Shown here: positions 8,244-64,000 of the stretch, in pieces
Layout of the letters: every line of letters begins with the position of its first letter
Position numbering within the stretch: position 1 is the first letter of the stretch
Assembly: GCF_027947595.1 (NCBI RefSeq)
Contig: NZ_CP116257.1
Location: forward strand, 2,790,001-2,854,000
Length of the DNA stretch: 64,000 nt
Direction of reading: 5' to 3'
Origin: Streptomyces lienomycini
GTDB lineage: Bacteria > Actinomycetota > Actinomycetes > Streptomycetales > Streptomycetaceae
Position numbers and translations under genes: made by a program
The notes under the pieces: generated by a model
What the model was told of the DNA's origin: nothing
The model's input: only the letters and a program-made list of their open reading frames with translations
Database searches by the model: none

Positions 8244-8257
8244 GGAGACAGGACGAC

Positions 8258-49095: not shown

Positions 49096-50691
49096 TCAGT
49101 AGTCGCGCCACTCGTCCTGCACGTACTCGAGCACCGCGGGATCCATCAGGGTGCTCGGCCGTACGTCGGTGCGGCGGCGGTCGACGGGGAACACGGTGGC
49201 CGCCTTCAGCACCGCCGCGTCCAGGTAGCGGAGCTTCGGCCGGTCCGGGGCGAGCCGCAGCGGCGGGGCCTCGGTGCCGGGGGTGGCGAGGACGAAACCC
49301 CAGTTGCCGAAGCTCGGCACGTCGACCTGGAACTCCGTCGTCGCGTACCCGGCGGTCTCGATGGTCTTCGCGATCGACCAGTAGGTCTTGGGGGCGAAGA
49401 ACGGCGACCCGCTCTGCACCATGACCTGGCCGTGCGGCGCCAGCACCCGGCCGAGCAGATGGTAGAACTCCACCGAGTACAGCTTCGCCAGCGACGCCGA
49501 GTCCGGGTCGGGGAAGTCGATGATCACCGCGTCGTACCGCTGCCGGGCCGCGCGCAGCCAGGTGAAGGCGTCCGCGTTGACGACCTTGGCCCGCGGATCG
49601 TCCAGCGAACCGTGATTGAGCTTCCGCAGCGGCTCGTAGGTCCGCGCCAACCGGGTCATCGCCGGGTCCAGTTCGACCAGGGTGGCATGGCGGACGTCGT
49701 CGTAGCGCAGCACCTCGCGCAGCGCGAGCCCGTCACCGCCGCCCAGGATCAGCACGTTGGAGCGGCGGCCGGACAACGCGGGGTGGACCAGCGACTCGTG
49801 GTAGCGGTACTCGTCGACCGAGCTGAACTGGAGGTCGCCGTTGAGGAAGAGCCGTACGTCGGGTTCCCCGGTGAAGGCGGTGGAGCGGGTGACCACGATG
49901 TCCTGGTACTGCGTGGTCTCGGAGTGGATGATCGGGTCCGCGTACATGTGCTGCCGCGCGGTCACCTCCAGGTCGTCCGCCAGCACGTACGTCGTACCGA
50001 GCGCGGCGAGCACCACGGTGACGCCGGCCAGCAGTCCGGCCTTGACCAGTCGGCCGGTCTGGCGGCGGAAGATGAACACCACGACGATGACTCCGGCGAC
50101 CGCGTTGACCACGCCGACCACCAGCGCGCCCTTCAACTGGCCGAACGTCGGCAGCAGGAACAGCGGGAAGCACAGGCCGCCGACGAGGGCGCCGATGTAG
50201 TCGACGGCGAACATGTCGGCGACGGCGCTGCTCGCCTCCTGCTTGCGGATGCGCTGGAGCAGCGTCATCAGCAGCGGGATCTCGGCGCCGATGAGCAGGC
50301 CCACCACCAGGGACACCACGATCATCGCGGGCATGTAGAGCTGGAGCCAGGCGAAGGCCGCGTACAGCATCAGGACGGACAGGCCGCCGACCAGCGCGAG
50401 CACCCCCTCCACCACGGCGAAGGCCACGATGGGACGGCTGCGCAGCGGTTTGGCGGCCAGTGATCCCACGCCCATCGCGAAGACCATCACGGAGATGACC
50501 ACGGAGGTCTGGAGCACCGAGTTGCCGATGAGGTAGCTGCCCAGGGCGGTCAGGGCCAGCTCGTAGACGAGGCCGCAGGCGGCGCAGAGGAAGACGGCGA
50601 GCAGCAGCAGGAACCGCGCCCCCCGGGTGTGGCGGTCGGCCGGAGGGCGCGGGGGCGTCGCGGTGGCGCGGTCGTCCAGGGTGGAGCTCAT
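49096..50691 (-). CDS. Membrane-embedded spermidine synthase-like aminopropyltransferase
   Basis: A 531-residue protein with about seven membrane helices in its first 225 residues, then a spermidine synthase-fold domain (about 245-505). The catalytic half has VLILGGGDGLALREVLRY (SAM-type nucleotide loop), TLVELDPAM, VVNADAFTWL and IIDFPDPDSASLAKLYSVEFY, which holds the catalytic Asp. In ordinary SpeE the membrane part is absent, and this fused form is common in Streptomyces. It may make polyamines at the membrane or transfer aminopropyl groups to another acceptor; the acceptor is unknown. ATG 50691 has GAGGACC upstream, inside a 12-bp tandem repeat. It is last in a leftward operon with DUF350, DUF4247 and DUF2617 genes. 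Confidence 0.87.
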   Translation of the reverse strand: MSSTLDDRATATPPRPPADRHTRGARFLLLLAVFLCAACGLVYELALTALGSYLIGNSVLQTSVVISVMVFAMGVGSLAAKPLRSRPIVAFAVVEGVLALVGGLSVLMLYAAFAWLQLYMPAMIVVSLVVGLLIGAEIPLLMTLLQRIRKQEASSAVADMFAVDYIGALVGGLCFPLFLLPTFGQLKGALVVGVVNAVAGVIVVVFIFRRQTGRLVKAGLLAGVTVVLAALGTTYVLADDLEVTARQHMYADPIIHSETTQYQDIVVTRSTAFTGEPDVRLFLNGDLQFSSVDEYRYHESLVHPALSGRRSNVLILGGGDGLALREVLRYDDVRHATLVELDPAMTRLARTYEPLRKLNHGSLDDPRAKVVNADAFTWLRAARQRYDAVIIDFPDPDSASLAKLYSVEFYHLLGRVLAPHGQVMVQSGSPFFAPKTYWSIAKTIETAGYATTEFQVDVPSFGNWGFVLATPGTEAPPLRLAPDRPKLRYLDAAVLKAATVFPVDRRRTDVRPSTLMDPAVLEYVQDEWRDY

Positions 50692-50727
50692 GGGGTGGTC
50701 CTCGGGGTGGTCCTCGGGGTGGTTCTA
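50692..50727 (-). repeat. 12-bp tandem repeat that duplicates a ribosome-binding site
   Basis: Three units (50692-50703, 50704-50715, 50716-50727, the last with two changes) fill the 33-bp gap before the spermidine synthase-like gene. On the coding strand each unit reads CCACCCCGAGGA-like, so a GAGGA ribosome-binding site occurs twice, 12 bp apart, with the nearer one at the right spacing for the ATG. Confidence 0.85.
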
Positions 50728-51165
50728 GGAGAGGGCCGCGCCGACCATGACGGCGGTGCCCAGGTACATGCCGGCCTGGACCCAGGCGGCGGGGTGCGGG
50801 CGGCGGTCGTCGCCGTCGTCGAGGGCCACCGCGCCCATCTGGCCGGGCGTCAGCATGCCGATGACGATGCCGACCAGCGTCATCACCAGCACCCCGGCCA
50901 GCCCGTAGAGCAGCGTGCTGAACAGGCCGTATCCCAGGCCCTCTTCGGACTCGCTGGCCCGGATGGCCGACATGATGACCAGGCCGACCGCGACGGACTG
51001 GCTGCCGAGGAGCACGGCCGCGCCGCGGTTGCGGTCCCGCCACACCACGTGGAAGAGCTTGCCGGGGGTGACGAGGTCGAGGGCGACGAAGCCGACGGCC
51101 ATCACGGCGAGGCCCACGACCCCGTAGAGCAGGGCCTGCCCGGCCGACTCGAAGATCTCGGTCAC
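50725..51165 (-). CDS. DUF350 membrane protein
   Basis: A 146-residue integral membrane protein with four helices: LLYGVVGLAVMAVGFVALDL, an AVLLGSQSVAVGLVIMSAI segment, LLYGLAGVLVMTLVGIVIG, and a C-terminal VQAGMYLGTAVMVGAAL. It matches DUF350 (UPF0719), a family found with spermidine synthase-like and DUF4178/DUF4247 genes. No activity is known. ATG 51165 is preceded by AAAGGCAA. It lies 64 bp after the DUF4247 gene and 33 bp before the aminopropyltransferase, in the same operon. Confidence 0.87.
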   Translation of the reverse strand: MTEIFESAGQALLYGVVGLAVMAVGFVALDLVTPGKLFHVVWRDRNRGAAVLLGSQSVAVGLVIMSAIRASESEEGLGYGLFSTLLYGLAGVLVMTLVGIVIGMLTPGQMGAVALDDGDDRRPHPAAWVQAGMYLGTAVMVGAALS

Positions 51166-51229
51166 TGCGTTGCCTTTCTGGAGGGCGTCTGTGGAGGGCG
51201 TCGTCGTCGGGGTCGGGGGACGCCGGGCG

Positions 51230-51625
51230 TCACTTGCCGGAACCGGGGCCGCCGCCGCGGAAGCTGCTCGGGTTGGGCCAGTAGGTGAGGTGCTGCTGAT
51301 GCCGGCGGTAGCCGTTGCGGTAGTCCTCGATCTCGATCGTGCTGCCCCGTTGGTACGGCGAGACGGTCACCATGTCGTCGCCGTAGCGCAGGAACTCCAT
51401 GCCGCCGCCGGACGCCCGGTCGAGGGCGTCGCGGTGGTGGTCGATCGCGTCGGCGACCTTGGCCGGCGAACTGTTCTTGTCGAGCCACCCGCTCCCGCCG
51501 GCCGAGTACGTCTTGCCGATCCAGCTGCGCGGGACGCCGTCCTCGCCGTCGCTGGAGCAGGCGGAGAGCAGGACCGTGACCAGCGCGGCCGCCACCGCCC
51601 CGCGAAAGAGTCGGGTGCTGTTCAT
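51230..51625 (-). CDS. DUF4247 lipoprotein
   Basis: A 131-residue lipoprotein. The signal peptide (MNSTRLFRGAVAAALVTVLL) ends in the lipobox LLSAC. A short mature domain follows (SWIGKTYSAGGSGWLDKNSS, then PAKVADAIDHHRDALDR and MEFLRYGDDMVTVSPYQRGS), matching DUF4247 of actinobacteria. The tail is Gly-rich. ATG 51625 follows GGAGG and overlaps the DUF2617 stop by 4 bp (ATGA at 51622-51625). It sits in the operon with membrane and spermidine synthase-like proteins, so it may be an outer-face partner of that complex. Confidence 0.87.
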   Translation of the reverse strand: MNSTRLFRGAVAAALVTVLLSACSSDGEDGVPRSWIGKTYSAGGSGWLDKNSSPAKVADAIDHHRDALDRASGGGMEFLRYGDDMVTVSPYQRGSTIEIEDYRNGYRRHQQHLTYWPNPSSFRGGGPGSGK

Positions 51626-52128
51626 CGAGCCTCCAGCCGGCTGTACGTCGATACGATGTGCCCGTCCTGCGGATAGCTGTGCCAGGTTCGCCAGGCCAGC
51701 CCCGCGCCGGACCGCTTGCCGCACGCCTCGACGACCACCGCCGTCACCGCTTCCGGAGACCCGGGGAAGACCCCGCACAGGCTGTGCTCCGCCTCGTTGG
51801 CGCGGCTCAGGGCGTCCGCGACCCGGGCGCTGAACTCCTCGGGCCCGAGGCATTCCGTGGCCGCGCTGAAGTCGTACGTCCACCCCGCCAACCACCGGGT
51901 GTGCGTCGCCGGCAGTCCCCTGACCGCCTCCGGCAGGCACGCCACGGTCTCCCGCACCGGACCCGCGAAGACCTGATGGGACGCGCCGAGCAGCCTCAGA
52001 CGCACGGCGAGCCCTCCCACGGACACCTCACGTTCGGCAAGCGCGGGCCGTTCGGTCAGGTCCAGGGAGAAGCAGAGCTGATCCGCGGCCGTATCCAGGT
52101 AAGGGGCTTGCAGAGATACGGCGTGCAT
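51622..52128 (-). CDS. DUF2617 family protein
   Basis: A 168-residue protein without signal or membrane segment, so cytoplasmic. It reads LDTAADQLCFSLDLTERPAL, VRLRLLGASHQVFAGPVRETVACL and WTYDFSAATECLGPEEFSAR, as in DUF2617 of actinobacteria. The C-terminus carries WRTWHSYPQDGHIVSTYSRLE. No reaction is known. ATG 52128 is chosen within a longer open frame because the family begins MHAVSLQAPYLDT here. It is the first gene of the leftward four-gene operon and overlaps the lipoprotein start. Its constant link with the spermidine synthase-like gene suggests that it regulates or assists that enzyme. Confidence 0.87.
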   Translation of the reverse strand: MHAVSLQAPYLDTAADQLCFSLDLTERPALAEREVSVGGLAVRLRLLGASHQVFAGPVRETVACLPEAVRGLPATHTRWLAGWTYDFSAATECLGPEEFSARVADALSRANEAEHSLCGVFPGSPEAVTAVVVEACGKRSGAGLAWRTWHSYPQDGHIVSTYSRLEAR

Positions 52129-52305
52129 GCGGCTGCGGCCCCCCGGTCCGATAGTGCTACGAGCGGCGCTGAGTATGACACATGCGTCAACGATGGCCGT
52201 AAAGCGACCCCTCGGCACTCTCGTTCGGATTGCGTGCGGACCAGGGGAAGACGCCTGCGATACGCAGCCCGGGATCACAGGTCCGGTACGCCGCACCAGA
52301 GCACT

Positions 52306-53496
52306 TCACATCGGCTTGCGCCACGGGAATCCGCGTCTCCGCCGGGTGGCGGCCTGGTGATGGACGAGGACACTGCCGATCAGCGGCTCGTTCGGATGTG
52401 GACGTGGAGAGGGAGCGGGAGTCGAGGGGGCGGCGGAGGACTGCGAGTCGGCCGGCAGGGGCGGAGGGACCGTGCCCGCCGCCGTCCTCCGGGGCAAGGC
52501 ACGGAGCGGGCTCAATGCCGGTGCCATCTGTTGGCCCACCAGCTTCCGGACCGTGCGGTAGTGACGCAGTCGCGGCACGGTGACGACGAAGGGGAACAGG
52601 GTCGGGTGCCACTCCTGGTCGAAGGTGACGAAGGCTCTGAGAGGCGCGTCCCACTCTCGTCCGGTGGCACGAGGTACCACCGGACAGTCGGGCAGAACGG
52701 GCAGAGGAGCCCACGGACTGCCGCCCTCCCGTTTCTTCCTCGCCTCGTACAACCCGGCCACCGCTGTGCGGAACGCGTTGTACTCCCGCTCGTCGCAGCT
52801 GATCACGAGGATCAGTCGCTCGGGGGTGGTGGTGCGAAGCACCTCGGTGAACTCCCATGCGGTGCCCGGGCCCTGTGCGACGGACATGAGGACGACGTGG
52901 GCCCCCTGGATCAGTTCACTCACCGTGTACTCCCACCCCTGGAGCGGGAGATATCCCCGCTGGGCGCCGAGCAGCGGCAGTTGCTCGCCGGGCCGTCCGA
53001 CCGCCACGACCCGCCCGTGCTCCGAGAACTGGCCGAGCAGGAACTGCTCCGCGGTGAGACCCGGCACGTCGAACGGCGACCGGGATCCCCAGCCGGGCGT
53101 CCCCGAGGGGGCTCTCGCCATCGGCTGGTCAAGGGCGAACGGCCGTAGGTAGAGCAGGTACCGCTCGCCCTTCAGATGGTCGAAGGACGTGATGGTGCTG
53201 ACCCGGTGCCGCTGTCCGCGTACGAGGAGTTTCCGCCCGACGTCGAACAGGAGCCAGCCGATGGAGACGACGACCACGATGATCAGCACGCGCACGGACC
53301 AGTGGATCCCCGCGACCTGGGGACTGGGATCGGAGAAGAAGTTGCTCCCCAGTCCTCCCCCTCCACCGGCGCCCAGGGCGAACCCGAGAGCCCGCAGTGT
53401 CCGTCCCAGGGTGATGAGCGTTCCCCCAGTGACCGGCCGCTGGCCGGGAGTTCGCGCGGCTGTGGCGGCTTCGCGCCGTGCGCTGCTGACTCCCAT
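52306..53496 (-). CDS. Membrane-anchored protein of unknown family with an RYLLYLRPF motif
   Basis: A 396-residue protein that I cannot place. A Ser/Ala/Arg-rich start leads to one long hydrophobic stretch (WSVRVLIIVVVVSIGWLLF, about 65-83). The cytoplasmic part begins GERYLLYLRPFALDQPMARA and has the look of an alternating alpha/beta fold (RVVAVGRPGEQLPLLGAQR, then GAHVVLMSVAQGPGTAWEFT and RLILVISCDEREYNAFR). The pattern R-x-L-Y-L-R-P-F, GRPGE and GxxWE recurs in uncharacterised actinobacterial proteins. I suspect a nucleotide-sensing or TIR-like fold, but this is not shown. The C-terminus is a Pro-rich tail. The ATG at 53496 has GGAGGG close by. It lies downstream of the four-helix membrane protein and TPR/CHAT cluster. 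Confidence 0.6.
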   Translation of the reverse strand: MGVSSARREAATAARTPGQRPVTGGTLITLGRTLRALGFALGAGGGGGLGSNFFSDPSPQVAGIHWSVRVLIIVVVVSIGWLLFDVGRKLLVRGQRHRVSTITSFDHLKGERYLLYLRPFALDQPMARAPSGTPGWGSRSPFDVPGLTAEQFLLGQFSEHGRVVAVGRPGEQLPLLGAQRGYLPLQGWEYTVSELIQGAHVVLMSVAQGPGTAWEFTEVLRTTTPERLILVISCDEREYNAFRTAVAGLYEARKKREGGSPWAPLPVLPDCPVVPRATGREWDAPLRAFVTFDQEWHPTLFPFVVTVPRLRHYRTVRKLVGQQMAPALSPLRALPRRTAAGTVPPPLPADSQSSAAPSTPAPSPRPHPNEPLIGSVLVHHQAATRRRRGFPWRKPM

Positions 53497-53692
53497 ATGC
53501 CCTCCGACGGCCGCGGCGTGTGACACCAGCGCCACATCATGACGCTCGAAGCGACGGTGCGTCAGGCGTTCGCCGGTCAAATCCCCCTGGAGGGGACGTC
53601 GGCGGGGGAGCAGAGCGACACACCTTGTCGTTCTCCTCGCCGGGCTGGGGCACAGTGCGCCGCTCGGCACGCCCACGGCGCCACGACCGCTC

Positions 53693-54613
53693 CTACGGGT
53701 CCCCCGACTCCTTGCGCAGCAGCCGTGTGAGACGTTCGCCGAGCACTCGGTCGTCCCTCCCCTCGTACTCGACGTTCAGTGCGGCGGCCAGGTCACGTAC
53801 GTGCAGGTCGGCCAGGGCCTCGGTGAGTTCGGCGAAGGCATCCGCGGCCGCGCGGCCGCGGAGTACTCCCGAGGTGACGGCGACGCCCCCGGCCAGTGCC
53901 GCGGGCCACCACCACACCGCCAGTACCAGATATCCCAGACCCCAGGCGCACAGACGTGCCGACGCGGTCAACCTGAGTCGGGCGGCCTGCAGTTCGGCAC
54001 GGGTGCCGTCGGCGGCCAGGAGCCACAGGTGCGGCCAGGCGGCCGTCAGGTCCAACCGGTAGGCCTGCCACAGCCGTTGTGCGGGTCCGGAGAGACGGTC
54101 GCCCATCCTGAAGGGGTGGCGGGGCGGCGCCGAGGCGATGCGGGCACGGTCCGCGTAGCGCCGCTCGGCGACGTCGGCCAGCCGGTCGGCCTCGGCCGCT
54201 CCCTCGATGCGGGCCCGACCCGCCGCCACCAACGCGGTGCGGAAGGCCGCATCCGCCACGCGCCAGCGGCGCGAGCGACGGTCGGCGAGATACCGCAGTA
54301 CAGGCCCGTGCGGCTCCGCACACCAGAGAAGTTCCACACCCGTGCCCAAGGCCTGGGCGGCCGCGCCGGTCGCCGCGGCACCGGCCAGCACCCCCAGCGC
54401 CACCAGGACGACGGTGCCGGCGCTGCGGGCCGCGGGGGAGTCGGACAGCGTGTCGACCCAGTCCCGCAGCCGCTCGAGGTCGGACCAGTGCTCGTGGCCG
54501 AGCAGCGTGGCCGCGGTGGCGGCGGTGAGGAAGAGCAGCCCGGGCAGGGCCAGCGCGGCGAGCCATCGTTCGGCGATACGGCCGCCCAGCGCGCTGAGGA
54601 ACGCGCTGGTCAC
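53693..54613 (-). CDS. Four-helix membrane protein of unknown function
   Basis: A 306-residue membrane protein. Hydrophobic segments lie at about 17-37 (WLAALALPGLLFLTAATAA), 65-90 (VVLVALGVLAGAAATGAAAQAL) and two near 220-255 (WGLGYLVLAVWWWPAALAGG). A soluble, basic loop of about 120 residues lies between them and a charged tail follows (DDRVLGERLTRLLRKESGDP). No known domain is recognised. Its ATG at 54613 overlaps the stop of the zinc-ribbon-like gene upstream by 4 bp, so the two are translated together. It belongs with the divergent TPR-CHAT gene by position and may anchor the complex to the membrane. This is inference. Confidence 0.65.
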   Translation of the reverse strand: MTSAFLSALGGRIAERWLAALALPGLLFLTAATAATLLGHEHWSDLERLRDWVDTLSDSPAARSAGTVVLVALGVLAGAAATGAAAQALGTGVELLWCAEPHGPVLRYLADRRSRRWRVADAAFRTALVAAGRARIEGAAEADRLADVAERRYADRARIASAPPRHPFRMGDRLSGPAQRLWQAYRLDLTAAWPHLWLLAADGTRAELQAARLRLTASARLCAWGLGYLVLAVWWWPAALAGGVAVTSGVLRGRAAADAFAELTEALADLHVRDLAAALNVEYEGRDDRVLGERLTRLLRKESGDP

Positions 54614-55047
54614 CGGAGGGGGACCGTACGCAGCGGCTGGCCGAAGACCCGGCAGTCGGGGTGCGGGGCGTCGTCGCCGGGCGCCTCCACGCGCCCGCAG
54701 TGCCCCCGCGGGCAGGCCAGTACGTGCAGCGCCGGGTGTACCGGCCCGGAGACCGGGAGCCGTTGGTAGGCGGGCGTGCCCGGCGGTGGGGTGGTGCGGT
54801 AGGAACCCAGGCCGGCGCTGTGCCCGGCCGCGAGCAACTCCTCCTCCAACTCGTCGAAGATGTCGTCGAGTTCCTCGGCCGCCCGACCGGCACGCAGTTC
54901 CGCGGTGATGGACTCGACGAGCCGCAGCCCTCGCTCACCGAGCACCAGCGATCCCGGCGCGTCCGTCAGCCGTCGGCAGAGTTCCCCCAGCCGGGCGTGT
55001 CCGCCTCGCGGCCCGGGCCCACTTCGTCCGTCGGTCTCGATCCCCAC
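54610..55047 (-). CDS. Small protein with zinc-ribbon-like C-terminal motif
   Basis: A 145-residue cytoplasmic protein. The N-terminal part is helical and acidic (RLGELCRRLTDAPGSLVLGE, then AEELDDIFDELEEELLAAGH). A proline-rich linker follows. The C-terminal end has Cys and His residues, LACPRGHCGRVE and HPDCRVFGQPL, in an arrangement like a single-zinc ribbon (CPxGHxxR...PxCxxFGxPL). It heads a leftward set with the membrane protein (4-bp overlap). It is divergent from the TPR-CHAT gene, with 289 bp between. I cannot name it; an adaptor or regulator role for the CHAT system is a guess. Confidence 0.65.
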   Translation of the reverse strand: MGIETDGRSGPGPRGGHARLGELCRRLTDAPGSLVLGERGLRLVESITAELRAGRAAEELDDIFDELEEELLAAGHSAGLGSYRTTPPPGTPAYQRLPVSGPVHPALHVLACPRGHCGRVEAPGDDAPHPDCRVFGQPLRTVPLR

Positions 55048-55093
55048 CGGTCCCCCTCGGACGCCGGATGTCGGTCGGCCGCGATTGTACGTC

Positions 55094-55155
55094 GGCTGAG
55101 GGCTGAGGGCTGAGGGCTGGAGGCTGGGGGCTGGGAGCTGTTGGCTGTTGGCTGG
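55094..55155. repeat. Degenerating GGCTGAG/GGCTGGG heptanucleotide array
   Basis: Three perfect GGCTGAG units (55094-55114) run into GGCTGGA, GGCTGGG and GGCTGTT units, ending near 55155, in the 289-bp divergent region between the zinc-ribbon-like and TPR-CHAT genes. It is G-rich on the + strand. No promoter could be picked out around it. Confidence 0.88.
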
Positions 55156-55336
55156 CGGGAATCGGCTGTCGGACGTCGTCGGCGTCGTCAGGTGTATGCC
55201 GAGGTTCCGCAGCCCGCCTCCCCCGGGCGGCGCGGTTCGCTGTACGCCGTTGCTCCGTCGGCCCGTTCGCTATCGTGAGGAGGGGCCGCGCAGCGCCGAG
55301 AGACCTCGGTCCGGCCGTGTGACACCGGGGGTGCGC

Positions 55337-58300
55337 GTGATCAACGCGAGTCGCGCTCGAGCGGCGGACGGACCGGACGAGGAAGCGCACGCGGACGCAC
55401 TGCTGTCCCGCCATCTCCAAACAGGCGACCGCCAAGCCCTCGACCAGGCGATCGCTCTCTACCAGCAGTTGTCCGCCTCCGCGGCGCCGGACACCGCGCG
55501 GACCGGCGCCCGGGCCACCAACCTCATGGTGGCCCTCCAACTGCGCTATCAACTGCTGCGCCGTCCGGACGACGTGGACGCCCTGGTCGACCTGGGCCGG
55601 GGACGGGCGGCGCGCGAACCGGTTCAACCACAGGACGTACGGCTTCTGGGACTCGCGTACCGGCAGCGGTTCGCGCTGTTCGGGCGGCCCGACGACCTCG
55701 ACCGAGCGGTGGAGACGTTCGACCGGGCATCCCGCCTGCCCCAGAAGGCCGAGACCGCGGCGCAGTCGTTCGGCGCACTCGCGGAGGCGCTGCACGAACG
55801 GCACCGGATCGCCGTCGGCCTGGGAACCGCCCCCGCGGAACCCGGACTCGAAGCCATGGGGCCCCGAGCCCCGGGACTCCAAGCCCCGGGACCTCAGGCC
55901 ACGGGACCTCAGGCCACGGGACCTCAGGCCACGGGACCCCAAGCCACGGGGCCTCGGCCCGGGAGCCCCGCCGCGCCCCTCCCCACGGATCTCCTGCGCG
56001 CGACGGACGTCCAACGGCGCGCGCTCCACGTACTCCCGGACGAATCGGACGAGCGCCCCGGCTACCTGAGCAACCTGGCCGGCATGCGCCACGGCGCATA
56101 CCAGTTCGACGGGGATCTCGGCGCCCTGCGCGAGGCGCTCGACCTGTGGCGTTCCGTAGCGGAAGCCTTTCCCAGGGGCGAGTCCGCCCGCCTGCTCGTC
56201 CTGCGCAATCTCACCCAGGCCCTGCGAGAGTGGCACGAGCACGTCCCGGAGGAGGCTCACCGCTCGGAGATGCTGCGGATCCACCGCATGGCCCTGGCCG
56301 AGTGCCCGCCCAGCCACCCGGACCGCGCCGAACTGCTCGCCGGTCTCGGTGCCGCGCTGCGCCTGGCCGGCGAGGCCACCGACGCGCAGGCGTTGCTCGA
56401 GGAGTCCGCAGCCGTACTGCGCGCGGTCCTGCCGCTGTTCCGCCCCGGCACCCCGGAACACGCCAGGAGACTGAACAGCCTCGGCAACACGCTGCACAGG
56501 CTGGCGCAGCGCACCGGGGACGCGGTGCTGCTGGACGAAGCCGTCACCACCCTGCGCACAGCCGTCGCCGAGGAGAAGCGCGGCACGGACTCGTACGCCG
56601 GGACCCTCGCCAACCTCGCCGTCACCCTGCGCGAGCGCGCCCTCCAGACCGACGATCTGGCCTCCCTGCGAGAGGCCTCCCGACTGGCCAGGGAGGCGCT
56701 CCACGCGGCACAGGACCAGCCACCCCACCAAGCAGCCCGGCTCGCCAACCTGGGAGTGGTCCTGCAGAGCTGGCACACCGTGACCGGTGACACCACGGCG
56801 ATCGACGAGGCGATCGACGTGGCCCGGCAGGCGCTCGCTCTGACACCCGCGACCGGACAGCCCCGCGCCGACCGGCTGAACGGCCTCGCCAACGCCCTGC
56901 GCGCCCGCTTCGGTTCCACCGCCGACGTGGCAGACCTCGACGAGGCCGTCGACCTGCTGGAACAAGCCGTCCAACAGGTCCCCTACGGCGATCCGATGCT
57001 CGCGCTGACCCTCTCCAACCTCGGCTCCGCCCGACTCACCAAGCACCACACCACCGGCGAACCCGGCCAGTTGGAGCAAGCGGTCAGCGAACTGGGCCGC
57101 GCGGTGTGGGCCGTCATCGAGCACACCTCGACCCAGGGCAGCTACCTGAAGTGGTACGGCGACGCACTGCGCGCCCTGCACCACCGGGACGGTGACCCAG
57201 GGGTGCTCCGTGCCGCCGAGGACGCCTACCGGCAGGCCGCCAAAACCAGTTCCCTGCCCGCCTACGAGCGGGTCCTCGCGGCCTGGGAATGGGGCGCCGC
57301 CGCCGCGGACGGCCACCGCTGGGACGAGGCGCTGCCGGGGTACGAACTGGCACTGGAACTCCTGCCGTTCGCCGCCTCGGGCCGCCTGGTCCGCAGCGAC
57401 CAGGAACGCGGTCTGTCCCGGGTCCGCGGCCTGGCCGCCGAAGCCGCCGCGTGCGCGGTCAACGCCGGGAGGCAGGAGCACGCGGTGCTCCTGCTCGAAC
57501 AGGGCCGGGGTGTCCTGCTGGGCCGGGCCATGGCCACCCGCGACGGGCTCGGACGGCTGCGCGCCGCCCACCCCGCCCTCGCCCACCGCTTCGCCGGCCT
57601 GCGGGAACGGCTGGACGCGCTCGAGGCCACCGACGCCGCGGACACCGCCCAGGGCCGGCTGCCGGCCGACACCACCGACCTGCGGCACAGCCTCGCGGCC
57701 GAACTGGAGCACCTGGTCGCCGAGATCCGCGCCCGGCCCGGCTTCTCCGACTTCCTCGGCGTGCCGGACCTGCGGGCGCTGCTCGCCTGCGCCGACCAGG
57801 GACCGGTGGTACTGGCCTACTGCAGCGAGTTCCGCAGTGACGCGCTGGTGCTGCGGGACGGCGAAGTCCTCCTCGTCCCCCTGCCGTACGCCACCCCTCA
57901 GGCCGTCGGCCAACAGGCGGACCGGTTGGAGCGGGCGCTCGCCGACGCGGCCGACCCCGCCCGCGACCGGGCGGCCCAGCAGACCGTCAGCGAGGTACTG
58001 GCCTGGACCTGGGACCACGTCACCGGGCCCGTGCTCGATCGGCTCGGGATGCGCGGAGCCGCGCCGGGCGGCGGGCCGTCCCGGTTGTGGTGGTCACCGG
58101 GAGGCGCACTGGCCTCGCTGCCGCTGCACGCCGCCGGGCACCACGAGGAGGCCCCGGACGCGGCACCCGGGGCAGCACCGGACGACGGCCCCGAACCCAC
58201 TCCGTCGGCGGTCGCGCCGGAACCACGGACGGTACTGGACCGCGTGGTCTCCTCCTACACACCGACCGTCGGAGCTCTCCGGTACGCCCGCACCCGGGCC

Positions 58301-58927
58301 GCCGCCCCCCGCCCGCACGGCCCACTGCTCGCCGTGGCGCTCCCCGAAACACCCGGTGCCCGGCCCCTCGGTGGCGCGCGGCGCGAGGTGGAGGTACTCC
58401 GCGGCCTCCTGCCCACCCACGTGCTGTACGAGGAGCACGCCACCTTCCAACAGGTGATGGACGCCCTGCCCCGCCACCCCTGCGTCCACTTCGCCTGCCA
58501 CGGGGTCAGCGAGCCCGCCGACCCCTCGAACGGTCGGCTCCTGGTACACGACCACGCGACCCGTCCGCTGACGGTCCGGGCCATCTCCCACCTGGAACTG
58601 CCGGCGGCCCGCCTCGCGGTGATGTCCGCGTGCGAGACGGCGCGGGGCGGCGGAGAACTGGCCGACGAGTCCATCCACATCACCTCCGCCTTCCAACTCG
58701 CGGGCTATGCCCACGCCGTCGGAACGCTCTGGCCGGTGCACGACGCGGTGGCCGTCCGCGTCACCCGCCTCCTCTACGGGGAGCTACGCACCGAAGGAGC
58801 CGACGGTGCACCGGGGCTGGACGACACGAGGACGGCCCACGCGCTGCATCAGGCGATCCTGCGATGCCGTACCACCTTCGCGGCCAGCCCCAGTCTGTGG
58901 GCGGCACACGTGCACGCGGGCGCCTGA
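55337..58927 (+). CDS. TPR-CHAT domain protease (caspase/separase-like)
   Basis: A 1196-residue protein whose first two-thirds are helical repeats, including TPR-like units of about 45 residues (for example ALREALDLWRSVAEAF, RLNSLGNTLHRLAQRTGDAV, RLANLGVVLQSWHTVTGDTT). A C-terminal CHAT domain follows (about 905-1190; SPGGALASLPLHAA, then VVSSYTPTVGALRYAR). The catalytic pair of clan CD proteases is intact: His1055 in HFACHG and Cys1099 in MSACETA. CHAT proteases cut other proteins once a sensor fires. The start is unclear: GTG 55337 has GGGGG at good spacing, and GTG 55331 is an alternative. A TPR gene follows, and a membrane/zinc-ribbon pair is divergent. There is no signal peptide. Confidence 0.85.
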   Translation: MINASRARAADGPDEEAHADALLSRHLQTGDRQALDQAIALYQQLSASAAPDTARTGARATNLMVALQLRYQLLRRPDDVDALVDLGRGRAAREPVQPQDVRLLGLAYRQRFALFGRPDDLDRAVETFDRASRLPQKAETAAQSFGALAEALHERHRIAVGLGTAPAEPGLEAMGPRAPGLQAPGPQATGPQATGPQATGPQATGPRPGSPAAPLPTDLLRATDVQRRALHVLPDESDERPGYLSNLAGMRHGAYQFDGDLGALREALDLWRSVAEAFPRGESARLLVLRNLTQALREWHEHVPEEAHRSEMLRIHRMALAECPPSHPDRAELLAGLGAALRLAGEATDAQALLEESAAVLRAVLPLFRPGTPEHARRLNSLGNTLHRLAQRTGDAVLLDEAVTTLRTAVAEEKRGTDSYAGTLANLAVTLRERALQTDDLASLREASRLAREALHAAQDQPPHQAARLANLGVVLQSWHTVTGDTTAIDEAIDVARQALALTPATGQPRADRLNGLANALRARFGSTADVADLDEAVDLLEQAVQQVPYGDPMLALTLSNLGSARLTKHHTTGEPGQLEQAVSELGRAVWAVIEHTSTQGSYLKWYGDALRALHHRDGDPGVLRAAEDAYRQAAKTSSLPAYERVLAAWEWGAAAADGHRWDEALPGYELALELLPFAASGRLVRSDQERGLSRVRGLAAEAAACAVNAGRQEHAVLLLEQGRGVLLGRAMATRDGLGRLRAAHPALAHRFAGLRERLDALEATDAADTAQGRLPADTTDLRHSLAAELEHLVAEIRARPGFSDFLGVPDLRALLACADQGPVVLAYCSEFRSDALVLRDGEVLLVPLPYATPQAVGQQADRLERALADAADPARDRAAQQTVSEVLAWTWDHVTGPVLDRLGMRGAAPGGGPSRLWWSPGGALASLPLHAAGHHEEAPDAAPGAAPDDGPEPTPSAVAPEPRTVLDRVVSSYTPTVGALRYARTRAAAPRPHGPLLAVALPETPGARPLGGARREVEVLRGLLPTHVLYEEHATFQQVMDALPRHPCVHFACHGVSEPADPSNGRLLVHDHATRPLTVRAISHLELPAARLAVMSACETARGGGELADESIHITSAFQLAGYAHAVGTLWPVHDAVAVRVTRLLYGELRTEGADGAPGLDDTRTAHALHQAILRCRTTFAASPSLWAAHVHAGA
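55861..55950 (+). repeat. 15-bp coding tandem repeat in the TPR-CHAT gene
   Basis: About six 15-bp units, the last four nearly identical (55891-55950; consensus ACCTCAGGCCACGGG), encode G-P-Q-A-T repeats between the first TPR-like helices. The insert is absent from a typical TPR solenoid, so it is likely a variable-length linker. Confidence 0.88.
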
Positions 58928-58940
58928 CGGCACCGGCAGC

Positions 58941-59020
58941 AACGAGGAGACCGGCACTGACGAAGAGACAGGCACTAACGAGGAGTCCGGTAGTAACGAG
59001 AAGTCCGCAGTAACGAGGAG
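58941..59020 (+). repeat. 18-bp imperfect tandem repeat between the CHAT and TPR genes
   Basis: Four units of 17-18 bp and a half unit, built on AACGAGGAGACCGGCACT, fill the 102-bp gap after the CHAT stop. In the frame that ends at 59033, they read as an acidic hexapeptide repeat (NEETGT/DEETGT/NEESGS). The last unit ends 9 bp before the downstream ATG and supplies its GAGGAGG ribosome-binding site. Confidence 0.85.
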
Positions 59021-59029
59021 GCGGTCACG

Positions 59030-60217
59030 ATGACCCGATGGTGGCGGCGACGAGCCGAGTCGGACGACGAGGGCACCGGCGTACAGCCGCCGCCGGGCCC
59101 GAACGAGCAGGAGCAGGCAAGAGGGCCCGGAATCGGGCGACGGCCGGTCGGCGGACACCTCACCGTCACGGAGGTGACCGAGGGCCGACCGGAGCGGGAG
59201 ATCGCCCGTGTGGAGATCTCCGCCGAAGAACTCCACACCATGCGTGCCCGGTCCGCCATCGACACCCTGGGTGCCGACCACCCGGACGCCCTCACCGCCA
59301 TCCGTGAACTCGCCCAGGTCCTCGTGACGATCCCCGGACGGGGCGAGGAGGCGATCGAGCTCTACCAGCATGTGGCGCGCACCCGGTGGACCACGCTCGG
59401 CGACCGCCACGAGGACACCCTGAGCATCTCGGCCGAGTTGGCCGGCGCCCTCCACACCACGGGCCAGCTGCGCCTGGCCGAAACAGCGTGGCGTGACACC
59501 TTCGGGGCCCAGGCCGAGACGCTCGGCCGCGACCACCCGGACGCGCTGCGCAGCGCCTGCGGGCTCGCCGCGGTCCTGGAGGACCTCGGTCGCGCGCCCG
59601 AAGCGGAGCCGCTGCTGCGGGACGTACTGGAACGCCGGATCCGGCACCTCGGCCGCGACCACCCCGACGTCCTGTCCGCCACCAACACCCATGCGGGGTC
59701 CCTGATCAAGTGCGGCCGCCACGCGGAGGCCGAGCGTGCCTTGCGCACCCTCGTGCCCCAACTGGACCACCGCTACGGACCCGACCACGAGAAGACGATC
59801 GCCGCCCGGAGCAACCTCGGCGCCGTCCTGGTCCGACTCGACCGCCACGCCGAGGCGGAAGAGCAGATCCGTGCCGTCGTACGCTCGACCGAGGCTACGT
59901 CGGGGCCGGACCACGAGTCCACGTTCACCGCCCGCAACAACCTCGCGGCCGTCCTGCACGCCCAGGGGCGCTACGCGGACGCCGTACCCATCCTGCGCGC
60001 GATCCTCGGCGGGCGCGTCGCACTCCATGGGGACGGTCACCCGATCACGGTCGTCACCCGGGACAACCTCGCCAACGTGCTGATCGACGCGGGCCACCAC
60101 GAGGAGGCCGCCGAACTGCTCGACCGCTGCGTACGCGACTACCAGCGACTGCACGGCCCCGGACACCCCCGCCTGCGAACCGCCGAGGAGAGACTGGCCT
60201 GGCTCCGCTCACCCTGA
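59030..60217 (+). CDS. Tetratricopeptide repeat protein (kinesin light chain-like repeats)
   Basis: A 395-residue cytoplasmic protein. A charged, disordered N-terminal 75 residues is followed by six to seven 42-residue repeats of the kinesin light chain TPR type, each with a G-x-D/DHPD-tract, e.g. LGADHPDALTAIRELAQVLV, LGRDHPDALRSACGLAAVLE and LGRDHPDVLSATNTHAGSLI. The later copies are YGPDHEKTIAARSNLGAVLV, SGPDHESTFTARNNLAAVLH and HGDGHPITVVTRDNLANVLI. No enzymatic domain is present. The start at ATG 59030 follows GAGGAGG. It is probably co-transcribed with the CHAT protease and could present a ligand or partner to it. Confidence 0.85.
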   Translation: MTRWWRRRAESDDEGTGVQPPPGPNEQEQARGPGIGRRPVGGHLTVTEVTEGRPEREIARVEISAEELHTMRARSAIDTLGADHPDALTAIRELAQVLVTIPGRGEEAIELYQHVARTRWTTLGDRHEDTLSISAELAGALHTTGQLRLAETAWRDTFGAQAETLGRDHPDALRSACGLAAVLEDLGRAPEAEPLLRDVLERRIRHLGRDHPDVLSATNTHAGSLIKCGRHAEAERALRTLVPQLDHRYGPDHEKTIAARSNLGAVLVRLDRHAEAEEQIRAVVRSTEATSGPDHESTFTARNNLAAVLHAQGRYADAVPILRAILGGRVALHGDGHPITVVTRDNLANVLIDAGHHEEAAELLDRCVRDYQRLHGPGHPRLRTAEERLAWLRSP

Positions 60218-60333
60218 GACGCGTGCACCGCACGCTCACCCCTGCGCATGTCCGGCTGCCCGGACCACCTCGTGGCTTTCGCGACACTGCTCGTGAAGCC
60301 CGTCGCCCTGGCGGCCGTCCCCCGGTGACTCAT

Positions 60334-60364
60334 TTCCTCGTACGCGGGACGCGTGTGCGAGGAA
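60334..60364 (+). terminator. Candidate terminator after the TPR gene
   Basis: A 7-bp perfect outer stem (60334-60340 with 60358-60364) continues inward with five more pairs, including wobble pairs. It lies about 120 bp past the TPR stop and 110 bp before the next gene. Confidence 0.5.
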
Positions 60365-60377
60365 GCAGCGCAGAGCC

Positions 60378-60402
60378 ACTGGCTCATGGCATGTGAGCCA
60401 GT
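60378..60402. promoter_or_regulatory. Inverted repeat upstream of the WXG-like operon
   Basis: Perfect 9-bp arms (60378-60386 ACTGGCTCA and 60394-60402 TGAGCCAGT) with a 7-bp spacer lie about 75 bp before the WXG-like start. It may be a regulator site or a transcript hairpin. It carries no U run. Confidence 0.5.
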
Positions 60403-60475
60403 AATGTTGCCGACGCTCATGGAGGGGACCGAAGGGTCCCTCGACAGGGGATCAGGGCACGGGGAGAGAACGAGC

Positions 60476-60934
60476 ATGGCTTGGGACGAGTGGGAACAGC
60501 TCAAAGCTGAAGCTGCCGAGCATGGCGGTTCGGTGCATACGCAGATCAATCAAGTCGCCGATCCCGGCGGGAGCAGTACCAGCAGTGTGACGGGCGGTCT
60601 CAAGACGAGCAGGACCGCGTGGAACAAGGCCGGCGGGGGAGTCGGTGGTCTGCGTGACGAGATCGACACCGCACTGACCAAGCTGTCCGACGGGCAGAAA
60701 GGGCTGGGTGGCGACGCCGGCTGTGTGACCGCAGGTGCACAGCAGGAGGTCTACCGTTCCTGGGCCCGCTACGTGAAGTCCGTGAAGGGGCGGTGCGGCG
60801 ACCTGAAGGAAGTCCTCGAACAGGTCGGGCACGACCTGCTGTTGACCGACGAGGGCGTCCGGGCCGCGCTGGGCAACATCGACCTCAAGTACGCCGACAC
60901 GACCGCCGTCGGTGGCAAGAACGCGGGGCGGTGA
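60476..60934 (+). CDS. Small WXG-like helical protein of unknown function
   Basis: A 152-residue all-helical protein beginning MAWDEWEQLKAEAAEHGG. It has a possible WXG-superfamily helix-turn-helix pattern (SRTAWNKAGGGVGGLRDEID), which recalls proteins exported by actinobacterial type VII systems or their partners. A Trp-containing helix follows (EVYRSWARYVKSVKGRCGDL). ATG 60476 has GGGGAGAGAA upstream. It overlaps the next start by 4 bp (GTGA at 60931-60934), so the two are translationally coupled. No secretion-system gene is in the window, so export is only a possibility. Confidence 0.65.
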   Translation: MAWDEWEQLKAEAAEHGGSVHTQINQVADPGGSSTSSVTGGLKTSRTAWNKAGGGVGGLRDEIDTALTKLSDGQKGLGGDAGCVTAGAQQEVYRSWARYVKSVKGRCGDLKEVLEQVGHDLLLTDEGVRAALGNIDLKYADTTAVGGKNAGR

Positions 60935-62790
60935 CGGCGGCCATGGACGTCACCACACTCAAGAACCTCAAGCCGTCGGAATTCGAGCAGGCCGCCGACG
61001 GCTACCGTGCGACCGGGGACATGGCCGACGCCGCCAAGGAGGAGATAGAACGGGTCATCGTCTCCGGGATGAACAAGGCACTGCAGGGCGAGGCCCTGGA
61101 AGCGGCCATAGGGGAACTCGGGAAGCTCGCAGCCAACTTCCACTACACCCAGACCGAGTGCGCCCTGGTCAGCACGGCCCTCAACGGCTTCGCCCACGAT
61201 ATGGACTCCGCACGGAAGAAGCTCCTGTCCGCGCTGGACGACGCGGAGGCACGGGGGTTCACGGTCAACCCCGACGGCAGCGTGTCCTACCCGGCGGCAC
61301 CGCCGGCCGCCGGTGCCAAGGAACCGCACACGGGAGGTTCAGTCAGCGGTGCCACCGATCCGACGGCCCAGGCGGTGGGCCGTCAGTCGGCCAACTTCGA
61401 TCCCAACCCGTACCACGGCGAGGCGCTGGCCATCGCGGACCGGATTGCTGCCGCTCTGCAGGAGGCAACCGAGGCGGACAACAAGTGGGAGCCGAAGATT
61501 CGGGCCCTGAAGGCCGACGACGACCTCACCGTCTCCGACCGGGACTGGACGGACGTGAAGGCGGACACGAAGGGCGTCGCCCAGGCCGCCGACAGCTACC
61601 TCGACAGCATCAAGCCTCCGCCGAAGGAGGGCGACGCCGAGGACAACGCCCTGTGGTGGAAGGACCTCAGCCCGGAGGAGCGCGCGGCGTACCTCTCGCT
61701 CCACCCCGAAGTCGTCGGGGCGCTCGACGGGCTTCCCGCCGTGACGCGCGACGACGCCAACCGCACGGTGCTCGCCGAGTCGCATGCCAAGTACCAGATG
61801 GAACTCGACTCCATCCCACCGGAGCCGGAGAAGAAGTACACGACGATCAACACCATCAACGGGCCCATGAAGGTGCACTCCGACGAGTGGCTGGCATGGA
61901 GGGACAAGTACGAGGGCCGCAAGAACGATCTGCAGAGTTCAGTCGACGGAATGAAGGCGATCGAGAACCGCTTCGACCGGACCGGCGTGGACGGAACGCC
62001 TGAGGCCTACCTGCTCGGGTTCGACCCCGTCGGCAAGGGAGACGGCAAGGTGATCCTGGCCAACGGCAACCCGGACACCGCCGACCACACCGCCGTCTAC
62101 GTCCCTGGCACGGGCACCCATCTGGGCGGTATCGACAAGGACATCGTCCGTGGCGAGCGACTCTGGGCGGCCAGCACGGCACAAGCCCCGGGGCAGAACA
62201 TCTCGACGATCACCTGGTTCGACTACGACGCCCCACGGTCCGCATACCCTGGTGACAAGGGCGACGCCATCCCGGAAGCCATAAGCGACTCGTATGCGGA
62301 GAAAGGTGGTCCCACGCTGCGTGAATTCCTGTATGGAAATCGCATGGCGCACCAGGCCGAGTCCGGGCCCAACAATTTCGGACATTCAACGGTGATCGGT
62401 CACAGTTACGGGTCGACCGTGATCGGGGACGCGGCCAAGTCGGGAGGCCTTCTCGACGGACCGCTGGCCGCCGATGACGTTGTCGTGGCAGGGAGTCCGG
62501 GAATGCAGGCGGATCACGCAGGCGATCTCGGAATCAGAAAGGGCCACATGTGGGCCATGGACGGATCCGGAGACGACGACTTCGTGACGATCGGTGGCAG
62601 ACTCGTCGGGCTTGGGGACAACGCCACCATTCCTACCGACGACAGTTTCGGGTCGACGGTCATGAAAACGGACGGTGGCAATCACGGGGCGTACTGGGAC
62701 GTGGACGGTTCGGGGAATCCGTCCGAAGCCCTGAAGAATCAGGCTCGTGTAATCGTAGGTGACTATCAGGGTGTAACCGTTGAACGTTGA
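60931..62790 (+). CDS. DUF1023 alpha/beta hydrolase with N-terminal helical domain
   Basis: A 619-residue protein. The N-terminal 230 residues are helical with no clear enzyme domain (MDVTTLKNLKPSEFEQAADG, followed by YRATGDMADAAKEE and heptad-like helices). The C-terminal half is a DUF1023 hydrolase: FDPVGKGDGKVILANGNPD, TAVYVPGTGTHLGGID, a WFDYDAPRSA-type segment and the nucleophile elbow STVIGHSYGSTVIG. The acid/His partners probably lie in VVAGSPGMQADHAGDL and NHGAYWDVDG. GTG 60931 overlaps the upstream stop; ATG 60943 (MDVTTL) is an alternative start. Relatives in Streptomyces often sit next to small WXG-like proteins, as here. Secretion or toxin-like roles are guesses. Confidence 0.82.
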   Translation: MTAAMDVTTLKNLKPSEFEQAADGYRATGDMADAAKEEIERVIVSGMNKALQGEALEAAIGELGKLAANFHYTQTECALVSTALNGFAHDMDSARKKLLSALDDAEARGFTVNPDGSVSYPAAPPAAGAKEPHTGGSVSGATDPTAQAVGRQSANFDPNPYHGEALAIADRIAAALQEATEADNKWEPKIRALKADDDLTVSDRDWTDVKADTKGVAQAADSYLDSIKPPPKEGDAEDNALWWKDLSPEERAAYLSLHPEVVGALDGLPAVTRDDANRTVLAESHAKYQMELDSIPPEPEKKYTTINTINGPMKVHSDEWLAWRDKYEGRKNDLQSSVDGMKAIENRFDRTGVDGTPEAYLLGFDPVGKGDGKVILANGNPDTADHTAVYVPGTGTHLGGIDKDIVRGERLWAASTAQAPGQNISTITWFDYDAPRSAYPGDKGDAIPEAISDSYAEKGGPTLREFLYGNRMAHQAESGPNNFGHSTVIGHSYGSTVIGDAAKSGGLLDGPLAADDVVVAGSPGMQADHAGDLGIRKGHMWAMDGSGDDDFVTIGGRLVGLGDNATIPTDDSFGSTVMKTDGGNHGAYWDVDGSGNPSEALKNQARVIVGDYQGVTVER

Positions 62791-63364
62791 TGTGGTGACT
62801 GCGAAGCAAAGAGGCCGGTCGATGCTGGGGGTTTCCGCGACCGTGGCCATCTCTCTAGTATTGACGGGTTGTGGGTCTGTGGGAAACAAGAGCAGCGAAG
62901 AGAAGCTCGGCTACACTCCGAAGGTGCAGGAGATTCAGACTTCGAAGAACCAGGTGAACGACATCTCGAGTCGGATACTGGACTGGATGGGCGTGACAGG
63001 CAAGACCACAGAGGCCAGCGCTGCAGCCGGCATTTGCGAAGCCGTTGATCCCGACTTCAAGAAGTACTACCTGATTCATCATCCGTGGTCCGTGTACGAC
63101 GTGAAGGACGGCTCCTTCCAGCAGGCGATGGAGAACATCAGGCGGGAGCTTCCCAAGCATGGATGGAAGATCACCAGGGACGGCCACACGGATTCGGCCG
63201 CCCGCAACCCGGAGATCGTCGCGGTCAACGAGAAGAGTCATCACACGGCGACGATCGAGTGGGCGAAGAACCGATCAGGGAACCTGAAGCAGATCATCTC
63301 CGTGGACGTGAACTCACGTTGTTACCGTGCCCCGGAAGGCACGGACATGTCCAAGGACAGATGA
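62780..63364 (+). CDS. Lipoprotein of unknown function
   Basis: A 194-residue lipoprotein. After a short charged start, the hydrophobic stretch MLGVSATVAISLVLTGC ends in a lipobox (VLTGC), with the mature chain beginning CGSVGNKSSEEKLGYTP. The body has no known domain; it reads QEIQTSKNQVNDISSRILDW and KKYYLIHHPWSVYDVKDGSF. The start is uncertain: TTG 62780 overlaps the hydrolase stop and has AGGG upstream, GTG 62792 and 62795 are possible, and ATG 62822 would start right at the signal peptide. It follows the DUF1023 gene directly, so it may be its membrane partner or an immunity-like protein. Codon third positions hold more A/T than in the rest of the window. Confidence 0.65.
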   Translation: MNVDVVTAKQRGRSMLGVSATVAISLVLTGCGSVGNKSSEEKLGYTPKVQEIQTSKNQVNDISSRILDWMGVTGKTTEASAAAGICEAVDPDFKKYYLIHHPWSVYDVKDGSFQQAMENIRRELPKHGWKITRDGHTDSAARNPEIVAVNEKSHHTATIEWAKNRSGNLKQIISVDVNSRCYRAPEGTDMSKDR

Positions 63365-63825
63365 GGGCCTTGACGGGATGGGCGTGGGCGCGTCCATCCG
63401 CAGGCAGTGGGCGCAGGAGGTTGTGCGTCGCTACCTGTCCGCGACGGTGGTGAGGTCGCAGGGGCTCAGTACCTCACCGAGTCGCCCGGCCCGGTGGGGC
63501 GAGGCTCAGGAGGCCATGGAAACGGCGAACGGGGCTGAGCGTCCGGAGCCGCCTCCGACAGCAGGGGGCGCCAAGGGGGCCGGACCCTGTTCCGTCCATC
63601 CCGGCGGCCCGGTTGAACGCGAGGCAGTTCCCCGGACGAGGCCGGAGCCTCTACGCCGGGATCGTCGCCGTACGTTGTCGTCGCACGAGCTGTCCCCCGA
63701 GAGAGCTACGCAAGTGTCCACTCCAGGGTGAAGCGCCGCACGGGTGAAGTCCGGTTGGCTCACTGACTGTCAGCACAGCGGCGGACCGCAGGTCCGTCCG
63801 AGCAGAGCAGCAGAGGGGCAACACC
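63365..63825. other. 461-bp stretch with no recognisable gene
   Basis: No frame in this stretch has family-like sequence on either strand; the open frames read as chance sequence (Pro/Gly/Arg-rich and lacking the usual codon bias). A possible promoter for the next gene would lie near 63760-63800, but no clear -10/-35 pair is seen. No strong hairpin was found. Confidence 0.5.
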
Positions 63826-64000
63826 ATGGGTACGACGCGCAGTTCCGGACCGGCCGGGTTCCGAGGAGGTCGCCACCGGCTCGTCGCGGCACTGGCCATG
63901 GCGACGCTGACGGGAGCCACGCTGACCGCATGCGACGGAGACACCGAGGACACGTCGTCGGCGCAGGGCACGACCGCCACGAAGAGCGAGGAGGCATCTC
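63826..64000 (+). CDS. Lipoprotein, N-terminal part (cut by the window end)
   Basis: The first 58 residues of a lipoprotein run to the window edge. The start ATG 63826 follows AGAGGGGCAACACC. The signal peptide has a basic stretch (FRGGRHRLVAALAMATLTGAT) and the lipobox LTAC, followed by an acidic Thr/Ser/Glu linker (DGDTEDTSSAQGTTATKSEE). Such starts are common among small exported lipoproteins of streptomycetes. The domain that would define it is outside the window. Confidence 0.75.
   Translation, partial: MGTTRSSGPAGFRGGRHRLVAALAMATLTGATLTACDGDTEDTSSAQGTTATKSEEAS

Follow-up and report, generated by a model that had tools for sequence, protein, structure and literature searches.

A candidate CATRA-like conflict module in Streptomyces: a TPR-CHAT protease with a helical membrane protein and a small cysteine protein

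CATRA is a predicted bacterial immune or conflict system, reportedly defined by Burroughs and Aravind in 2020 in the Journal of Bacteriology, and bacterial gasdermin operons combine a protease with a membrane-rupturing protein. A cassette comparable with both surrounds a tetratricopeptide repeat (TPR)-CHAT protease gene of Streptomyces lienomycini (assembly GCF_027947595.1, contig NZ_CP116257.1, positions 2,790,001 to 2,854,000 of the forward strand). This stretch of 64,000 nucleotides is called the window, and positions are counted from its first letter. An earlier note on the window had proposed that five genes, here named A to E, form one signalling or defence module; all five open reading frames were found in place. 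The conserved unit is a three-gene core of 5.2 kb, C-B-D, in which C and B are transcribed divergently from D:

55337 to 58927, forward strand: gene D, a TPR-CHAT protease of 1196 residues, its GTG start picked by comparison with the homologue at locus L001
58499 to 58501, forward strand: codon of the catalytic His of D (HFACHG, residue 1055)
58631 to 58633, forward strand: codon of the catalytic Cys of D (MSACETA, residue 1099)
54610 to 55047, reverse strand: gene C, a small cysteine protein of 145 residues with a helical N-terminal part and a degenerate zinc-ribbon-like C-terminal part (CPRGHC...C)
53693 to 54613, reverse strand: gene B, a helical membrane protein of 306 residues (83-row alignment and AlphaFold2)
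54610 to 54613, reverse strand: 4-bp overlap of the C stop and the B start, read in the window

The cassette resembles CATRA loci in its protease and in its layout. D matches the Pfam CHAT model at 2.1e-44, with TPR-S slightly below the cut-off, and its CHAT lineage is common to both systems, each of which is carried on plasmids and chromosomes. On a Streptomyces plasmid (L140), an annotated CATRA pair, in which CATRA-N, CATRA-C and CATASP were confirmed by Pfam, is divergent from a CHAT gene. A TPR-CHAT type gene is likewise divergent from the CATRA gene at L153 and for one CHAT of L150, and L140 has a coupled small gene, as the cassette has in C-B. The layout used for comparison, coupled small and partner genes divergent from CHAT, was drawn from L140 and not from the CATRA-defining paper. 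The partner proteins, in contrast, differ. No CATRA model was detected at E<=5 among 20 B relatives and no CATASP at E<=5 among 17 C relatives (profile-profile probability 5%), and neither CATRA-N nor CATASP has a match at E<=0.001 in the genome of the window. B is a free-standing membrane protein; CATRA proteins carry varied C-terminal parts, which in Streptomyces appear by eye to be glycosyltransferase-like (L150, L151) or cyclase-like (L149), and which end in hydrophobic segments at L140, L152 and L153. Because layout and protease lineage match and CATRA-N, CATRA-C and CATASP are absent, the cassette is CATRA-like but not a member of CATRA; it is probably an unnamed relative with unrelated partner proteins.

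The earlier note had recognised no described system in this gene combination. This holds for the partner proteins: A, B and C of the window have no NCBIfam model at E<=0.1, and Pfam returned near-noise matches for A, B, C and 17 to 20 relatives of each, except for a membrane domain in two long A relatives (1.9e-6) and an HTH_20 row at 0.008 in one C relative. It does not hold for the layout, which matches an annotated CATRA locus. Titles and abstract openings in the literature gave no CHAT gene with a B-C-like pair, B and C having no established names, and the CATRA-defining paper may mention such a variant.

Other protease systems are further removed. Gasdermin operons likewise place a CHAT- or caspase-type protease beside a membrane-acting partner, but B is all-helical by prediction and gasdermins are not, and no gasdermin model was matched at E<=1 among the ten window proteins scanned. 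Csx29, the TPR-CHAT protein of type III-E CRISPR (Craspase), has the same combination of TPR and CHAT (PMC9729208, PMC10028731). The D match to Csx29 is weak, at 16.7 bits against a 300-bit cut-off, and no CRISPR model was found among the same ten proteins.

Conservation of the core was followed in 81 loci, consisting of the window and the best 80 of 259 relatives from a B-alignment scan (one genome per species), with flanks of at most 10 kb. The loci span nine families as judged by genus, with Nocardia and Actinospica placed in the families to which they presumably belong; seven families are named in the 108-row CHAT tree described below. B has a D homologue no more than 2 kb away in 77 of the 81 loci (phmmer E<=1e-3; one match at only 18 bits), and a CHAT domain was detected with an iterated profile in 73, on the strand opposite B in 65, as in the layout of L140, and on the same strand in eight. 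Among the eight loci without a CHAT match, L042, L045 and L061 run out inside D at a contig end, L066 retains approximately the first third of D, L062 begins inside B at a contig end, and B is truncated in L030; L070 and L075 are considered below. Searching 158 nearby frames with an iterated profile (E<=0.1) placed a C homologue ahead of B in 77 of the 81 loci, all except L030, L031, L032 and L062; the match in L056 falls in a frame without the cysteine ribbon. The 4-bp overlap of the small and membrane protein genes, pointed out in the earlier note and present in the window, recurs in 45 of the 77 loci measured.

The reciprocal occurrence was examined in 101 genomes of the genus Streptomyces. 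B matches occur in 26 genomes, 18 of them with a match over at least 265 of 303 model positions, and fragments, broken frames and weaker B-like proteins make up the remainder. Matches to CHAT occur in 75 genomes, with 182 places at E<=1e-10 by per-genome counts and 150 among those listed. The B matches comprise 36 places (39 rows minus three extra pieces of places already counted), 26 of which have a listed CHAT within 6 kb; seen from the other side, the 150 listed CHAT places include 26 that have a B match no further than 6 kb away. The weaker B-like kind accounts for two of them (G015 near 32 kb, and G039), whose CHATs (L166, L168) fall outside the main lineage. Ten B places have no listed CHAT: in L155 and L156 a piece of D or CHAT remains close to a contig end, L154 holds an intact B and C without CHAT, flanked on both sides by genes that appear transposase-like by eye, as the sole such pair in the 101 genomes, and the other seven are partial B genes or broken frames. 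Since the CHAT-less places are mostly partial or broken, intact B seldom occurs without CHAT, though CHAT has further partners. The earlier note had held that the genes would not form one system if either side occurred mostly without the other; B and C are rarely found without CHAT, but CHAT is mostly found without B. The cassette is commoner in these genomes than CATRA, with B in 26 of 101 and CATRA-N above its cut-off in 6; CATASP was found in 5 and DUF6338 in 10. At 7 of the 10 DUF6338 places and 2 of the 6 CATRA-N places, a listed CHAT is found within 6 kb.

These further partners were surveyed at 20 CHAT places without a strong B match. Five are near a DUF6338 (PF19865) membrane protein (L124, L126, L127, L129 and L130, the last in the window's own genome), three are near a weakly B-like membrane protein (L111, L115, L120), and twelve lie in other contexts. 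The CHAT and DUF6338 pairs resemble the cassette in CHAT lineage (six of seven rows), in having a small membrane protein as neighbour, and in their occurrence on chromosomes and plasmids (L138, L139), but their membrane protein is of another family, and the C profile detects no C-type protein in the five chromosomal loci or in L138 and L139. At L111 and L120, a different small cysteine-bearing protein of CRCG type lies between CHAT and the membrane protein. A second kind of CHAT locus (L111, L115, L120, L166, L168) has its weakly B-like membrane protein on the CHAT strand, and its CHATs form their own clade. At L117, L119, L123 and L125, CHAT is beside one type of short protein that begins, by eye, with PPP..LPG....V.L..GT..YRVH; the short protein of L117 matches a RES domain (2.1e-17), and we take it to be a possible NAD-consuming toxin.

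The relationship among these proteases was traced in a 108-row tree of 76 B-linked, 7 DUF6338-linked, 8 CATRA-labelled, 12 other-context and 5 weakly B-like CHATs. One lineage (support 99/99) takes in every B-linked CHAT, all but one of the seven DUF6338-linked CHATs and all but one of the eight CATRA-labelled CHATs, in a tree with a long-branch warning, an unsettled bootstrap and doubtful CATRA labels, namely those of two L148 CHATs and an L149 CHAT located at least 8 kb from a CATRA domain. The twelve other-context rows and the five weakly B-like rows stand apart from this lineage. Two pruned trees support the union of B-, DUF6338- and CATRA-linked CHATs at 100/100; 11 long-branch rows, including L149 (13 rows in the tree without L148), and 28 near-copies were dropped, among them the truly CATRA-adjacent CHATs (L140, L153, one of L150), and the CATRA rows left are the CATASP-adjacent ones of L150 and L151. 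The B-linked CHATs do not form one clade in the best trees. By the approximately unbiased (AU) test, a single B clade was rejected with 69 rows, the two L148 rows included (p-AU 0.011), but has p-AU 0.066 without them; for DUF6338, one clade remains compatible with the data (p-AU 0.18). Because the test of a B clade is borderline and one DUF6338 clade is not rejected, partner exchange is suggested and not proven, and the sequences suggest one protease lineage with exchangeable partners.

The catalytic His and Cys of clan CD that the earlier note read in D are present at residues 1055 and 1099, and of 73 aligned CHAT rows, 71 keep the dyad and the remaining two are truncated; D is predicted from its sequence to carry an intact His/Cys protease. 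In the D homologues of L031 and L032 (about 7410 to 9803, reverse strand), CHAT breaks off some 85 residues in, at an identical point in both species, which may reflect decay in common or a non-catalytic form. In C, residues C24, C112, P113, C117 and C132 are invariant among 71 chosen aligned rows, and AlphaFold2 predicts three helices followed by a loose linker and then a small beta ribbon, with a mean confidence score (pLDDT) of 80; rubrerythrin rows in the fold comparison were without significance. Of the zinc-ribbon-like character first ascribed to C, three conserved ribbon cysteines are seen, with no obvious fourth ligand in the window; a minority of relatives have a His at that position. 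B was modelled by AlphaFold2 as long helices only (mean pLDDT 92), while the hydropathy scan shows three hydrophobic peaks; the four membrane helices proposed earlier are probable, and an Arg-rich stretch would separate the second from the third. Its invariant residues in the 83-row alignment, R113, W193, W197, W224, W235, P237 and E265, are located in or after this stretch, which would face the cytosol, to judge by its arginines.

The distribution of the cassette is patchy and in part plasmid-borne. Fourteen of 23 B places on long contigs are located in the outer tenths, where a fifth would be expected (p 2e-5 if places are independent), a count that takes in fragments and multiple places per genome. 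The C-B-CHAT layout is present on a linear plasmid of Streptomyces NBC_01369 (L136) near a conjugal transfer gene, with matches to the B, C and CHAT profiles. On a Rhodococcus opacus plasmid (L137), the three genes lie on one strand, and the B and CHAT profiles match; the small protein has no match to the C profile but carries its own cysteine ribbon. The proteins of Micromonospora locus L036 and Streptomyces locus L050 share identities of 81% (CHAT), 75% (B) and 78% (C). Patchiness, chromosome-end bias, plasmid carriage and decay agree with a conflict system, and together with analogy they make a function in phage defence plausible.

We therefore propose, with a probability of roughly 0.45, that the three genes form a CATRA-like conflict module whose CHAT protease works on, or by way of, the membrane protein B. 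The most likely mechanism would be sensing by the TPR part, activation of CHAT at the membrane via C, and an effect on B or mediated by it. In D, the TPR array at the N terminus may serve as sensor and scaffold, and the C-terminal CHAT as an intact protease held idle. C, translationally coupled to B, may bridge D to B through its helical part and its cysteine ribbon, and B would be embedded in the cytoplasmic membrane, with the Arg- and Trp-rich stretch that joins its helices two and three turned toward the cytosol. A signal of invasion or stress at the TPR part of D, together with E where present, would switch CHAT on, and the active protease would cut B or C. B might then breach the membrane or send out a signal, so that the infected hyphal compartment would die or be sealed off. 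The gene association, the layout, the catalytic dyad, the CHAT lineage common to CATRA- and DUF6338-linked CHATs and the patchy, partly plasmid-borne distribution were observed; we infer the immune role, the bridging by C, the topology, the choice of B as target and the membrane damage as outcome.

Several observations weigh against this proposal. PADLOC-DB 2.0.0 gave 0 matches for all five proteins at E<=0.1, the literature searched held no link of B or C to phage defence, and no B relative was found on viral contigs. B has no significant fold match, so that its function as a pore or target is a guess, and it is conserved over its whole length, unlike effectors, which are often diversified. 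L070 and L075 contain B and C and lack D, and in the Nocardia loci L031 and L032, B is next to a D with a shortened CHAT, with no C match. B and CHAT distances in 47 distant loci are correlated at a moderate level only (Spearman 0.35, with 0 of 500 shuffles as high). At L150 and L151, CATASP follows CHAT on the same strand, and the divergent layout is therefore no fixed mark of CATRA. Finally, by a crude gene call and clustering, none of the remaining neighbour families is shared by more than 10 of the 81 loci.

It is also possible, with a smaller likelihood, that B is a membrane receptor, and that B and C sense envelope damage, tether D and release or activate it toward targets elsewhere. The module would then be a stress-signalling relay, with or without an anti-phage role, and the target of D could be a transcription regulator, as is reported for Csx29 and Csx30. 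The full-length conservation of B with its seven invariant residues suits a receptor as well as a pore, the adaptor gene is coupled to the membrane gene, and the unrelated membrane partners of other CHATs (DUF6338, 7 of 10 places within 6 kb) agree with tethering. A core stress regulator, however, would not be expected to be patchy, biased toward chromosome ends, plasmid-borne and often decayed, and the CATRA proteins in the same slot have effector-like ends, some of them glycosyltransferase-like by eye. That the CHAT gene and the B-C pair work separately, for example as a general protease and a transport or envelope pair, is improbable: most CHATs do lack B (it lies no more than 6 kb away at 26 of the 150 listed places) and D is missing from L070 and L075, which carry B and C, but D is near B in 77 of 81 loci, one of the four misses is cut at a contig end and another has a broken B, and the association persists in seven families and on plasmids although the flanks are not conserved. 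A toxin-antitoxin-like or kin-discrimination module, in which C restrains a membrane toxin B and D frees B upon sensing a rival or plasmid loss, would account for the overlap of the small and membrane protein genes, the plasmid carriage and the three near full-length B copies in one genome (G038), but it is equally hard to credit, as the large D with its TPR array exceeds the needs of such a pair and no toxin or immunity model was matched in Pfam or NCBIfam.

The two outer genes of the proposed five-gene module have a different standing from the core:

59030 to 60217, forward strand: gene E, a TPR repeat protein of 395 residues (Pfam TPR_12, 4.4e-50)
52306 to 53496, reverse strand: gene A, the RYLLYLRPF protein, an open reading frame of 396 residues

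E is a TPR_12/TPR_10 repeat protein by Pfam, as the TPR protein noted earlier behind D. It lies beyond D on the D strand in 29 of 81 loci, namely the window, Saccharomonospora L027, Lentzea L057 and 26 loci of Streptomyces or Kitasatospora; another five have a TPR match elsewhere, and 15 loci remained under a tighter limit on the gap separating the open frames. E is a clade-specific fourth gene. A contains the RYLLYLRPF/GRPGE/WE pattern described earlier and a single strong hydrophobic segment in the hydropathy scan, and is probably anchored in the membrane. It adjoins the cassette in 1 of 81 loci, the window itself. Its family occurs in 5 of the 101 Streptomyces genomes, where only the window copy is near B or a listed CHAT; the other four have no listed CHAT or B place near them and no CHAT or B match in the surrounding 1.5 kb. 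A is a bystander, and the five-gene unit was rejected, its C-B-D core alone being conserved. The A family has conserved YLRPF..D, G.PGE, Y...W and WE residues, and some longer relatives have additional membrane segments. Adjoining A, positions 49096 to 52296 encode a spermidine-synthase-like membrane protein (by eye) and DUF4247 and DUF2617 genes (Pfam), a cluster that looks unrelated to the cassette. Directly downstream of E, the G+C content drops to 64-67% (60001 to 64000), and this stretch encodes a WXG-like small protein (by eye, with no Pfam match), an Abhydrolase_8 protein and a lipoprotein-like open reading frame (by eye).

The spacer between C and D contains two conserved boxes:

55264 to 55277, no strand assigned: conserved box on the D side, CGTTCGCTATCGTG, one match in the window
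55081 to 55093, no strand assigned: conserved box on the C side, GCGATTGTACGTC (GACGTACAATCGC on the C strand), found once in the window

The 12-base core of the D-side box is present in all ten nearest loci (L001 to L010) and in L012, and the C-side box in the same ten; judged by its conservation, the D-side box may be regulatory. The distance between the boxes in these ten loci ranges from 16 bp (L004, L006, L008, L009) to about 207 bp (L001). Between them, positions 55094 to 55155 of the window hold an imperfect GGCTGGG heptad repeat of about nine copies. A scan of the spacer for promoters and terminators found nothing.

A broader and more doubtful proposal is that the actinomycete TPR-CHAT lineage is a general trigger repeatedly coupled to unrelated partners (B-C, DUF6338 and CATRA-effector proteins), with B as a caspase-gated executioner of non-gasdermin fold. 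If B is such an executioner, the cassette would represent a second, independent bacterial route to protease-triggered membrane death. If the main proposal holds, the commonest CATRA-like CHAT system seen here in Streptomyces is one without a model in Pfam, NCBIfam or PADLOC. The small size of the cassette makes its deletion or transplantation easy. Several membrane partners would then share one caspase-like protease lineage as a trigger that can be swapped among them, in a bacterial counterpart of the caspase-gasdermin logic, and the death of a compartment would be useful given the multicellular growth of the hosts.

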